Assembly: GCA_030418545.1 (NCBI GenBank)
Contig: QAIB01000005.1
Span: 186,001-250,000 of the forward strand
Length of the DNA stretch: 64,000 bases
Origin: Xenophilus aerolatus
GTDB taxonomy: Bacteria > Pseudomonadota > Gammaproteobacteria > Burkholderiales > Burkholderiaceae_C
Reading direction: 5' to 3'
How positions within the stretch are numbered: position 1 is the stretch's first letter; each line of letters starts with the position of its first letter. Positions 28,729-33,827 of this stretch are shown here, piece by piece. Both the position numbers and the translations under genes were made by a program. The notes beneath the pieces are model-generated. The model was not told where the DNA came from, did not search any database, and worked only from the letters and a program-made list of their open reading frames with translations.

Positions 28729-30558
28729 ATGTCCCTTTGCATTCTCGGACGCTTCGTCCGCCGTCCTGGCCTCTCCTTGCTCCTGCTGCCCCTGGTGATG
28801 TCAGCCTGCGGCGGTGGCGGCGATGGTGGCGGATTGCCGATCGCAGTATTTCCTACGGATCCGGCAACGCAGCCGCAACCGGCCGCCTTGATGCGGGCGG
28901 TCGAGGACAGCACGGGGCCCCAATGTGCCGCGGGTGGCCTGCGTATCGACGCGGGCGTGGATGTCAACCGTGACGGAGTCCTGGCGGATCAGGAGGTGAC
29001 TTCGACCCAGTATGTTTGTGCAGTCGCAGGGTCCGCGGGACTTGGCGTGCTGGTCCGGATGCGCGCAGAACCCCCTGGGGCGAACTGCGCGCAAGGCGGC
29101 TCGCAGGTGCTCGCAGGCATCGACAGAAACGCAAGCGGCACGCTCGAGGATGCTGAGGTCACCACCTCCGCTTATGTGTGCAACGGCAGCCCTGGGGCCT
29201 CGGGTTCATCAGGCCGGGACAGCCTGATCTCTTTTGCTGCCGAACCACCTGGTGCCGCCTGCCAGTACGGCGGGCAGCGCGTGCTCTCTGGGTTGGATCT
29301 CGACGGCAACGGCGTGTTGGGCGCCGGCGAGGTGACCTCCACGGCCTACGTGTGCAGCGCCGCGCCCGCCGATACCCGATGGATCGACGTGACAGGCGCG
29401 GCCATCCAGGCCGAATCGAACACGGGCTATCTGGCGAACTCAAGCGCGAGGACCGTCATCACCTTGCCAGCCGCGCCGAGCGTGGGAGATTGGGTCAAGG
29501 TCAGCGGTGTGGGCACGGGAGGGTGGACGATCGCGCAGAACGCTGGCCAGCGCATCAGCACGCTCGGCCTGCCTGGCGGTCTGGACATTCGCTGGACGAC
29601 CGGTTCGACCACCGGAAGCTGGTCCAGCATCGCGTCCTCGGCAGACGGCGCGCGGCTGGTGGCTGCATCCTCCAGCGGCGAGCTCTACACCTCGACGGAT
29701 CAGGGCCTGAGCTGGACGCTCCGGCTGACCGGGCAGGTCTGGAGCAGCGTGGCGTCATCGAGCGACGGCCTCAGGTTAGTTGCCACCACCAACGGAGGCT
29801 CGATCTTCGTGTCCACCGATGGCGGCGACACCTGGGCGAACGATGGATCGTCGCGCGCATGGACTTCCGTGGCCAGCTCCGCGGACGGCATGCGCCTGAC
29901 CGCGGCGGCGTACCTCGGTCAGATCTGGACCTCGGCCGATGGCGGTGCCAGTTGGACGGCGCGTGACAGCAATCGCGCCTGGCGCACTGTGAGCACGTCG
30001 GCCGACGGACGCGTTCAGGTGGCGGGAACGAACGGAGGCCAGCTCTTTGTGTCGACGGACTACGGAAGCACGTGGACGGCCAGGGCCAGTGGCAATTTCT
30101 GGTGGGCCGTGAGTGCGTCGGCAGACGGAAAACGGATGTATGCGACGGTCGACACGGGCACCCTGTGGAGATCGGAGGACTTCGGATCGACCTGGGAGGC
30201 CGTGGACACCGCTCGTGACTGGCGCGGTCTCGCGACTTCGGCGGACGGGCGCTTCGTCGTGGCGGGGACGGCTGGCGGTCGGATGTATCAGTCAACCGAC
30301 TTCGGTGCGTCCTGGCGAGCCACGGGCAACAGTGGCCACTGGCTGGGGATCGCCATCAGCGCAGATGGTCTTCGCGTGATTGCGGGGAATACCGGGGCGG
30401 CCCTGCAAAGCGGGATGCGCGTGACATCCACGACCTTGGGCGTGGCGGGTTCCCTTTCTGGAGAGCAAGGCGATACCGTCCAGCTGCAATACACGGGAGG
30501 AGGGGTGTTCGCGCCCATCGGATACGTGAATGCGGGGATCGACTTCGGGATTCAGTGA
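28729..30558 (+). CDS. Lipoprotein with EF-hand-like repeats and a seven-bladed BNR-type propeller
   Basis: 609 residues from ATG 28729 (a TTG nine codons upstream is less likely). The signal sequence ends LVMSAC, predicting lipidation at Cys27 and then a GGGG linker. Residues ~50-215 contain three ~45-residue repeats with a Cys pair and an acidic loop: GVDVNRDGVLADQEV, GIDRNASGTLEDAEV and GLDLDGNGVLGAGEV, each ending T.YVC (DUF7151-like). From ~300, seven ~40-residue repeats follow the pattern W.S.A.S.DG.R..A....G..Y.S.D.G.SW, a sortilin/BNR-like beta-propeller. Probably outer-membrane anchored and surface or periplasm exposed; ligand unknown. It lies just beyond the integrase remnant and may be island cargo. 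Confidence 0.78.
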   Translation: MSLCILGRFVRRPGLSLLLLPLVMSACGGGGDGGGLPIAVFPTDPATQPQPAALMRAVEDSTGPQCAAGGLRIDAGVDVNRDGVLADQEVTSTQYVCAVAGSAGLGVLVRMRAEPPGANCAQGGSQVLAGIDRNASGTLEDAEVTTSAYVCNGSPGASGSSGRDSLISFAAEPPGAACQYGGQRVLSGLDLDGNGVLGAGEVTSTAYVCSAAPADTRWIDVTGAAIQAESNTGYLANSSARTVITLPAAPSVGDWVKVSGVGTGGWTIAQNAGQRISTLGLPGGLDIRWTTGSTTGSWSSIASSADGARLVAASSSGELYTSTDQGLSWTLRLTGQVWSSVASSSDGLRLVATTNGGSIFVSTDGGDTWANDGSSRAWTSVASSADGMRLTAAAYLGQIWTSADGGASWTARDSNRAWRTVSTSADGRVQVAGTNGGQLFVSTDYGSTWTARASGNFWWAVSASADGKRMYATVDTGTLWRSEDFGSTWEAVDTARDWRGLATSADGRFVVAGTAGGRMYQSTDFGASWRATGNSGHWLGIAISADGLRVIAGNTGAALQSGMRVTSTTLGVAGSLSGEQGDTVQLQYTGGGVFAPIGYVNAGIDFGIQ

Positions 30559-32438: not shown

Positions 32439-32822
32439 TCAACGGTCCTGGATCCAGCGCAGCACCGTGATCCCGGCCCACAGGTTCAGCGCGATGGCCG
32501 ATGCCAGAAGCGCCGCCCCTGCCCACGCCGAATTCCCTGGTACCAGGAGCAGCAGCGGCGTCCAGGGCAGTGCCAGCACCAGGGTGTACAAGGCCGCGAC
32601 CGCATCCGCGCGCGCGCCCAACCACCCATTCGCGCTGAATGGAATGAGCAACAAGGCAAGGGCACCGGCGGCCGCATACGCCCACAGCAGGCGGCGAAGA
32701 AGAAGCGCCGAGCCGGCATGCCAACGATGCGCGTCCTTCCAGTCGGTGAGCCACCGGGCCACCTCCCTGAGGCGCATGGCCTTCGCATCGATGTCGGCCG
32801 TGCCGCCGGGTCGGGGTTGCAT
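32439..32822 (-). CDS. Hypothetical membrane protein (127 aa)
   Basis: A soluble basic N-terminal ~40 residues (IDAKAMRLREVARWLTDWKD) is followed by about three hydrophobic segments: LLWAYAAAGALALLLIPFSA, AALYTLVLALPWTPLLLLVP and GAALLASAIALNLWAGITVL. No known domain. It stands alone between the plus-strand peptide gene and the minus-strand RNA candidate at 32933; the terminator of that RNA would insulate it. Codon usage is like the chromosome. An alternative start is possible within the soluble part. Confidence 0.6.
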   Translation of the reverse strand: MQPRPGGTADIDAKAMRLREVARWLTDWKDAHRWHAGSALLLRRLLWAYAAAGALALLLIPFSANGWLGARADAVAALYTLVLALPWTPLLLLVPGNSAWAGAALLASAIALNLWAGITVLRWIQDR

Positions 32823-32932
32823 GAGGGCATTCTGGCGGAGTCCCGCGCACCCGCCAGGCGCTTTCGCTCAGGGATTCGTAGGACTGCAACACCGCCGCAA
32901 GCGGTCTTGCCGAACCCGAAAAGCCGTGCTGG

Positions 32933-33129
32933 AAAAAAGACAACCCGCCGAAGCGGGTTGAAGGCAGCCCTTCATACGAGGAGGGAGGAGGAGAAGAGAC
33001 AAGGGCCGCAGCCACGGACTGTGACGGCGTCGACTTAAGCGAGGCTGAAGCGGGCGTCCCCGCCAGTGCGCCTTCGGCGGTGCTGGAACGCCGGGCACCT
33101 GCAACATCTGTCACGACTCATAAAGAAAA
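32933..33129 (-). ncRNA. Candidate small RNA 1 with CCUCCUCCC loop
   Basis: On the minus strand, a 9-pair stem GCGGCCCTT/AAGGGCTGC (plus-strand 33001-33009 and 32964-32972, one G-U) encloses GTCTCTTCTCCTCCTCCC; the anti-Shine-Dalgarno motif CCTCCTCCC maps to 32983-32991. It is followed immediately by a terminator AACCCGC-TTCG-GCGGGTT (32942-32959) and TCTTTTTT. The 5' end is uncertain; TAAATT (plus 33136-33141) could be a -10. A 28-codon frame (MSRDRCC...) lies in the 5' part. A paralogue is at 33593. Confidence 0.6.
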
Positions 33130-33208
33130 AGTACTAATTTAACTACGAGTTGTGAACCTAAGTGTTCGTTTGTGCGGTATCTTTGGTGCTCTTCGAGCGC
33201 ACCGTGCC

Positions 33209-33511
33209 ATGACCAACGATCGCGACTTCCAGCTTTTCCTTACCCGCCTGAGTGCGGCCGACCTGGCGCGCATTGCCGGCTCGCGCCAAGGGTGGGGTGA
33301 CGAAGCGGCCGATCGCGTGGCGGAAGGCTTGCGTATCGCAGCCGAATGCCGCCGTCGCGCGGAGCAGCGCGAGGCCCGGGCCCGTGCGCGACGGGCCGTT
33401 TGGGTGGGCATGCGCCGGCAATGGCGCCACTGGTGCCACGTCGCCAGTCGCCCGGCCGGTGTGGGCGGTCGCCTACGTCAGCGGCTGTCTTCCTTCGGCC
33501 AACTGGCCTGA
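33209..33511 (+). CDS. Hypothetical Arg-rich protein (100 aa)
   Basis: Starts MTNDRDFQLFLTRLSAADLA, then ADRVAEGLRIAAECRRRAEQ and a strongly basic second half. Predicted helical and soluble, with no recognised family. It lies between two minus-strand small-RNA candidates and shares the AT-rich upstream patch (33117-33160) with the first. A GTG at 33152 would extend it by 19 residues. Real coding status is likely but not certain in such GC-rich DNA. Confidence 0.45.
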   Translation: MTNDRDFQLFLTRLSAADLARIAGSRQGWGDEAADRVAEGLRIAAECRRRAEQREARARARRAVWVGMRRQWRHWCHVASRPAGVGGRLRQRLSSFGQLA

Positions 33512-33592
33512 ACGGCTTCGCTGCCTGGCTGCAGCAGCGCGCGGCGGGTACGCCCGCGCGCCTCTTTCCGACAGATTCCGTGCGCGCAAAAG

Positions 33593-33700
33593 AAAACCCG
33601 CCGAAGCGGGTCAACAACAGCCCGATAGACGGGAGGAGGAGTCGGAAGAGACGCCGGGCTGCCGAGAGGCCAGTGTGCCGGCGGCACCTGAACGTGCGCT
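33593..33700 (-). ncRNA. Candidate small RNA 2 with CCUCCUCCC loop
   Basis: Paralogue of the 32933 element. Minus-strand stem CAGCCCG/CGGGCTG (plus 33655-33661 and 33618-33624) encloses GTCTCTTCCGACTCCTCCTC and CC; CCTCCTCCC maps to 33631-33639. It is followed by terminator ACCCGC-TTCG-GCGGGT (33596-33611) and TTTTCTTTT. Upstream hairpin GTGCC-GCC-GGCAC precedes it. The 5' end is unknown. No protein gene is supported between 33512 and 33827. Confidence 0.6.
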
Positions 33701-33827
33701 GAGTAAACCCGCAAGGCAAACACCGCCGTGCGAGCTCGCCGACAGCCGGCGGCCGGGCCGGCCTACCTGCGTGACGCGCGAGCCTTCGCAGCATGGGCCT
33801 TTGTTGACTCAGCGAAAGGAGCCCACC

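Follow-up and report, generated by a model that had tools for sequence, protein, structure and literature searches.

On the minus strand of the window, the 64,000-nucleotide stretch of Xenophilus DNA analysed here, two hairpins about 600 bp apart each combine a stem, a C-rich loop with CCUCCUCCC and an identical UUCG terminator, which raises the question of whether they are genes for small RNAs and, if so, what would switch them on and what they would act upon. We suggest that they are probably sibling genes of a family of stress-induced, trans-acting small RNAs of the Comamonadaceae that stands under PmrA/QseB-type control and masks Shine-Dalgarno sites.

Two hairpins with a C-rich loop

Copy 1 (32932-33009, minus strand) is supported by its fold and z-score, by conservation in five genomes, and by a covariance model that it matches with 84.7 bits, its own sequence being part of the model alignment. 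With a predicted 5' end at about 33010-33012, the RNA would be about 78-80 nt long. Its stem arms (33001-33009 and 32964-32972) enclose the single-stranded C-rich loop GUCUCUUCUCCUCCUCCCUCCUCGUAUG (32973-33000), and an intrinsic terminator with a UUCG loop and a U-run follows at 32932-32960 (hairpin 32941-32960). Copy 2 (33588-33663, minus strand), supported by its fold, the five-genome conservation and the covariance model (86.9 bits, its own sequence likewise forming part of the alignment), has a predicted 5' end at about 33663-33666 and a predicted length of about 75-79 nt. Its stem arms (33656-33662 and 33617-33623, minus strand) flank the C-rich loop region GGCGUCUCUUCCGACUCCUCCUCCCGUCUAUC (33624-33655), the end bases of which may extend the stem by one G-C pair, and its intrinsic terminator occupies 33588-33612 (hairpin 33595-33612). 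Between the two genes and outside both of them, on the opposite strand, lies an ORF of 100 aa without a Pfam match (33209-33511). Refolding and motif counts located both hairpins, their nonamers and their terminators just as the original prediction had described them.

The 14-base terminator core CCCGCTTCGGCGGG is exact in both copies (32944-32957 and 33597-33610), and these are the two occurrences in the window, against 0.02 expected in shuffles. The nonamer CCTCCTCCC is likewise present in both loops (32983-32991 and 33631-33639, minus strand), but the bare nonamer, taken alone, is weak and unremarkable evidence, with three occurrences in this G+C-rich window against 0.82 expected. The third, at 30495-30503 on the minus strand, has no terminator core and is probably a chance copy. 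With copy 1 as the query, a search of the whole genome returned copy 1 and copy 2 alone (E 0.001), and a search of a plasmid collection gave no match. The view of two paralogous small-RNA genes is supported.

From the stem onward, copy 1 folds with -29.2 kcal/mol (z -4.4; none of 200 dinucleotide shuffles as good) and copy 2 with -30.1 kcal/mol (z -2.9; one of 200 as good), the fold of copy 2 including a small inner hairpin over GUCUCUUCCGAC in the loop and leaving CUCCUCCUCCC unpaired. For 149-nt stretches that include upstream sequence, z is -1.4 for both copies, and 20 and 19 of 200 shuffles, respectively, are as good. As z drops when upstream sequence is added, the fold stands out only for an RNA whose 5' end is at the stem, and a start at the foot of the stem is what the promoter box and its spacing, described below, predict.

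Both stems do pair, as had been claimed, but they are not simply different in sequence: a core of CAGCCC/GGGCUG, with an A to G change in copy 1 of the window, is common to the two. They differ in their apical pairs, and at the base the pair may be G-C or G-U. The claim of compensatory differences did not hold up among 26 relatives, where one of the seven stem pairs is changed on both sides, in a single sequence; a 17-sequence alignment gives three of nine pairs, two of them apical. Because the stem sequence is itself conserved, the argument from compensatory evolution is weak.

Within Xenophilus, the two copies stand in tandem, about 600-700 bp apart, in five genomes (G000, G002, G008, G012 and G013) and also in G333, a second genome of the same species, and an identity profile was drawn from these tandem genomes except G333. 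The 30 nt around each pyrimidine tract (two 15-nt bins) are 100% identical in each copy, the terminators are nearly invariant, and the bins of box and spacer are 81-92% identical, the 92% belonging to the bin with most of the copy 1 box. Identity falls to 28-66% in the bins just beyond box and terminator and is about 90% again farther out. The invariance of the pyrimidine tracts against these flanks supports the earlier proposal of an anti-Shine-Dalgarno-like loop under selection at the RNA level. A 28-codon leader peptide (33035-33121), also proposed for copy 1, is rejected: the ORF reaches into the promoter box, where it ends ahead of the predicted start of the RNA, and its part before the box is 34-63% identical per bin and includes the lowest bins of the copy 1 profile.

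A covariance model of hairpin plus terminator without the promoter (R1), the search that the original prediction had called for, found a copy scoring 70 bits or more in 13 of the 15 genomes of Xenophilus; G003 gave a terminator-level match only (30.9 bits) and G004 no match. Six genomes (G001, G006, G007, G009, G010 and G011) have, instead of the tandem pair, two dispersed relatives on different contigs, and G005 has one copy. The second dispersed paralogue scores 39-40 bits and contains CCCCTCC. By its fold and its conserved CUCCUCC, the loop is C-rich, unpaired and able to complement Shine-Dalgarno sites, with one exception, the first dispersed paralogue: in five of the six genomes (all but G006) its stem is the same but CCUCC is missing from the loop, which reads, for example, ATTCCCCCCTC. 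The relative in G005 (L008, 1104-1185) has an sX8 RNA (RF02227, 95 bits) and two tRNA genes as neighbours, all within about 400 nt.

The promoter box and its recurrence

Ahead of both stems lies an element that the original prediction had missed and that, by its sequence, points to a PmrA/QseB-type two-component regulator. The copy 1 box, CTTCAG-CCTCG-CTTAAG (33034-33050, minus strand), is an exact fit to CTTMAGN5YYTAAG, and 10 nt past it stands the -10-like hexamer CACAGT (33018-33023, minus strand), of the form NANNNT. The copy 2 box, ACTCAG-CGCAC-GTTCAG (33688-33704, minus strand), is diverged, with four mismatches to the strict pattern, and keeps the 11-bp period; its -10-like hexamer, CACACT (33672-33677, minus strand), is again 10 nt past the box. 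The layout is the same in both copies, with half-sites 11 bp apart, 10 nt, the hexamer, and a stem that begins 24-25 nt past the box.

In an alignment of 26 copies (A2), every one is preceded by two half-sites 11 bp apart. Seventeen rows have the exact CTTMAG-N5-YYTAAG, nine of which are no evidence for the box because the scan that yielded them required it, and the remaining nine rows (four of copy 2, five from the dispersed Xenophilus group) deviate at four positions with the period kept. A NANNNT hexamer follows exactly 10 nt past the box in 20 rows and 9 nt past it in five, and is missing in one (Variovorax N23). The stem lies 23-25 nt past the box in 21 of the rows, and 21 nt past it in the other five. 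The second Xenophilus paralogue (L140-L145) shows CGTCAG-N5-ACTCAG, 10 nt and CATACT at about the same distance in all six cases. No box was found for the member in G250.

Since R1 contains no promoter, the loci it finds are independent evidence for the box. Of 27 R1 loci fetched from other genera, five (L068, L069, L070, L071 and L074) show, by eye, the stem and C-rich loop, and four of these five, L068-L071, have a perfect box 38-39 nt ahead of the start of the match, with no second site of one mismatch or less elsewhere in the 3-kb locus. No such promoter site was found at L074. The other 22 loci were, by eye, terminator-driven matches without a C-rich-loop hairpin, and in none of them does a strict box occur within 60 nt.

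The strict box also occurs at other genes. In the 5.8 Mb genome it occurs five times and a backward control twice; in six genomes the counts are 19 and eight, respectively (palindromes counted on both strands). Being about twice the control, these counts imply that some of the other genomic sites are chance. Neighbours were viewed at 12 strict-box loci among those listed. Apart from the one at the RNA gene, the window genome has a site ahead of a DegP-like protease with Trypsin_2 and PDZ domains, a second ahead of an SbmA/BacA-type transporter (PF05992), a third ahead of an uncharacterized small protein, and a fourth within a long reading frame. A strict box precedes a DegP-like protease in G211 as well, so that the DegP-like cases come from two genera, and G008 has one box before the same SbmA/BacA-type transporter and one before the same small protein; in G299 a box near an SbmA/BacA gene is oriented the other way. 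A 114-aa protein without a Pfam match, encoded directly behind a PmrA-type box at L199 (2060-2404) and with a G008 counterpart in L151, is by its position a candidate member of the regulon.

Response-regulator genes are also among the box-bearing loci. In G211 a box (a site that came from the genome-wide strict-box search) separates a PAP2 gene from the gene of a PmrA/QseB-type response regulator, and the orthologue of this regulator in G106 (L166) has a perfect box as well. L166 is the only perfect case among 30 related response-regulator promoters of 250 nt each, a set that does not include the G211 operon; L172 has one mismatch and five others have two. The window genome encodes at least three PmrA/QseB-type regulators, with the recognition-helix motifs VHIH, VYIH and VLIH. 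One operon, at C3:84819, consists of a response regulator and a kinase with PAP2 farther upstream, and carries the near-box GATCAG-GCTGG-CTTAAG, followed by 10 nt and TAGCCT; the closest solved relatives of its regulator are the BasR/PmrA chains 8jo2 and 4s04. At C22:282524 lies a regulator in which the PmrA-like VHIH residues are kept; its own promoter is without a box. As there are several PmrA/QseB-type regulators with differing recognition-helix residues, no single one can be named.

Judged by sequence, the RNA-gene box is closely like the verified box CTTAAT-N5-CCTAAG, where PmrA of K. pneumoniae is reported to bind CTTAAT and CCTAAG head to tail and 5 bp apart; this enterobacterial PmrA (BasR) box, with the same half-sites and 5-bp gap, is described in that source for protein genes (PMC3973317). 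That half-sites so near to it, CTTAAG and CCTAAG, recur in strict form at PmrA/QseB-type regulators and envelope genes makes it unlikely, though worth weighing, that the RNAs are real and their 11-bp repeats serve another OmpR-class regulator, for example one of metal or carbon sensing. Such a regulator would fit the diverged NNTCAG-type site of copy 2 and the second paralogue, and also a strict box that exceeds its backward control just about twofold, and tandem sites of an 11-bp period are used by many OmpR-class regulators. We nevertheless favor a regulator of the PmrA/QseB type.

Distribution and relation to known RNAs

Beyond Xenophilus, copies are also present in Pseudorhodoferax, Paracidovorax, Acidovorax, Variovorax and one further genus. 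Searched against 299 genomes of the family, R1 gave some match at E 0.01 in 245, and low-scoring matches were left uncounted because most of those inspected are bare terminators. At four places in G031 (L015, L024, L025 and L027) a near-identical terminator stands, by eye, beside similar short reading frames and is possibly part of a repeated mobile segment.

A pattern scan of 84,980 species genomes for the box followed after 14-40 nt by GCAGCC..GGCTGC returned 29 loci, 14 of them from genomes that we take to be Comamonadaceae. All 14 have a spacing of 23-25, a C-rich loop and the terminator, which formed no part of the pattern; at none of the other 15 loci do all three features occur together. 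Of the 14, six come from genomes examined before and eight from genomes new to the analysis, namely five Paracidovorax/Acidovorax isolates, one Acidovorax MAG and two Variovorax. A 115-position model that includes the promoter (R2) matched at E 1e-7 in at least 12 of 399 family genomes and five of 141 genera, a lower bound since only nine candidates per genome were scored. Genus g146 is a weak member by R2 (55.9 bits), and none of 21 genomes of genus g12, presumably Variovorax, matched, in a search that had no positive control and whose empty result proves nothing. The distribution of the family is patchy.

Over the gathering score, Rfam 15 reports a single tRNA in the window, and in 16 loci of relatives and paralogues it leaves the RNA itself unmatched. 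Membership in RF02278, ar14, anti-hemB and rsmX was considered and set aside, all scores being under the cut-off. The literature matches listed, mostly titles and the beginnings of abstracts, include no description of this RNA family.

By design, the nearest known RNAs are those of RF02278 (ncS03, ncS05, ncS27, ncS62 and bdhR1; S17 in Bordetella), which are reported to be short, to combine a CU-rich hairpin with a terminator, to occur in three to five copies per Burkholderia genome, and to have a CU-rich part predicted to cover ribosome-binding sites (PMC5688073, PMC11722255). The RNAs described here could be a divergent branch of this family of Burkholderia double-hairpin 'toxic' RNAs and Bordetella S17, with which they share the plan of a CU-rich single-stranded part and a terminator hairpin within less than 100 nt, a GUCUC element, and a weak match of 18.6 bits for copy 1 (14.3 for copy 2, and 23.7 for copy 1 of X. 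aerolatus) against a cut-off of 50 bits. Their loop and stem sequences differ, however, from those of RF02278, and true RNAs of the RF02278/S17 type were found at another locus in all eight Comamonadaceae genomes tested (60-70 bits; L227-L234), that of the window genome scoring 62 bits (L229, C32:62333-62395). Upstream of the true copies stands TATACT in six cases and TACACT in the other two, and the 160 nt upstream contain no site within three mismatches of the strict box in any of the eight. Because the true RF02278 RNAs sit elsewhere and lack the box, we regard the two as coexisting families and a divergent branch as improbable. A second RF02278-like RNA (TGTCTCCTTGG.., 34-47 bits; L235-L239) starts no more than about 70 nt past the end of a reading frame, which at L235 encodes a phasin (PF09361), and ends in a terminator; it looks like a small RNA from the 3' end of an mRNA.

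The original prediction had likened the two RNAs to the cuckoo/CcsR type of alphaproteobacteria. The likeness of the loop stands, since SmelA075, SmelA099 and CcsR1-4 are described with CCUCCUCCC loops on stems of varied sequence (PMC3927594), but kinship is not supported by the features that were compared. SmelA075 is reported to have three and SmelA099 four loop hairpins (PMC3927594), and CcsR1-4 to lie behind a DUF1127 gene with an RpoH-type promoter and processing by RNase E (PMC10253847), whereas in the present genes a single loop hairpin is combined with a box promoter and a terminator that belong to each copy separately. No tandem CCUCCUCCC hairpins occur in one transcript, none of the five neighbouring window proteins scanned contains DUF1127, and the Rfam ar14 model gives 13 bits (E 9.4), for copy 1 only, against a cut-off of 58.8 bits. 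NmsR of Neisseria offers another likeness, with tandem homologous RNAs whose unpaired CU-rich stretches are described as complementary to ribosome-binding sites (PMC5688073).

Proposed function

From the anatomy of the RNAs, the box and its spacing, the conservation, and the recurrence of the box at other genes, all of them features of the DNA itself, we infer the following course of events. Under an envelope-stress signal, a phosphorylated response regulator of the OmpR/PhoB class and PmrA/QseB type would bind the two head-to-tail half-sites 11 bp apart and replace the -35 element, so that transcription would begin at the foot of the stem. The predicted product is an RNA of 70-80 nt in which one stem carries a large C-rich loop, for the most part unpaired, and an intrinsic terminator ends in a U-tail. 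Its loop (CUCCUCC and variants) would pair with purine-rich Shine-Dalgarno sites and so block the translation of a set of mRNAs whose ribosome sites are strong and rich in purines. Hfq probably takes part in this pairing, a terminator with a U-run being a usual form among Hfq-bound RNAs. Within an envelope-stress regulon, the RNAs would be the arm that represses and codes for no protein; the regulon may also include the DegP-like protease, the SbmA/BacA-type transporter and two-component operons.

Candidate targets were sought in nine genomes as GGAGRAGAGAC followed by ATG within 14 nt. Six places were listed, in four of the nine, and none for the backward control; two of the six are one site listed twice, one is the complement of the RNA gene itself, and one, in G419, belongs by eye to a look-alike of a glycerophosphodiester phosphodiesterase lipoprotein. 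No gene recurred and no target was common to several species among the nine genomes.

Instead of pairing with mRNAs, the C-rich loop might act as a sponge for an RNA-binding protein, as could be read from a loop whose composition is kept across genera while its exact sequence varies. The loop lacks the GGA repeats of the CsrA type and complements Shine-Dalgarno sites, and comparable CU-rich RNAs pair or are predicted to do so (PMC5688073, PMC4132741), which makes titration of a protein very improbable. Least probable of all is a leader or attenuator controlling the minus-strand ORF at 32439-32822, which lies about 110 nt downstream of copy 1 on the same strand, since the ORF after copy 2 is on the opposite strand, some relatives have different surroundings, tRNA genes for example, the terminator is a strong one, and conservation falls on the loop and not on an alternative pairing.

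For the favored reading, that of Shine-Dalgarno-masking siblings under PmrA/QseB-type control, there are precedents. One involves GcvB, presumably an RNA other than these two. BasS/R of E. coli is reported to induce it (PMC4651636), so that a small RNA driven by a PmrA-type regulator is precedented. The closest circuit is that of LhrC1-5 in Listeria, siblings with UCCC/CU-rich sites that, in the account of PMC4132741, were shown to bind one mRNA, with a predicted block of its Shine-Dalgarno site, and whose induction under envelope stress runs via the two-component system LisRK. The likeness of sibling RNAs, CU-rich sites and two-component control is one of circuit and not of homology, as LhrC belongs to a Gram-positive host and has three CU-rich sites per RNA (PMC4132741).

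Whether a PmrA/QseB-type system in these bacteria is both a repressor of translation, through Comamonadaceae small RNAs that are absent from Rfam 15, and an activator of transcription is in our estimate an even call. If it is, activation of the regulator would flood the cell with anti-Shine-Dalgarno siblings while raising DegP and the SbmA/BacA-type transporter, and the system would be an independently evolved Gram-negative counterpart of the LisRK-LhrC circuit. Small RNAs of the Comamonadaceae, bacteria of soil, water and plants, seem to have been little studied, and no title on one appeared among the literature matches listed. It is unusual for a new RNA that a fixed box, spacing and start predict the inducing pathway ahead of experiment. 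If the reading is right, these genes would provide a simple system for testing how a short C-rich loop resembling the ribosomal anti-Shine-Dalgarno sequence chooses its targets, and why such RNAs form sibling pairs.
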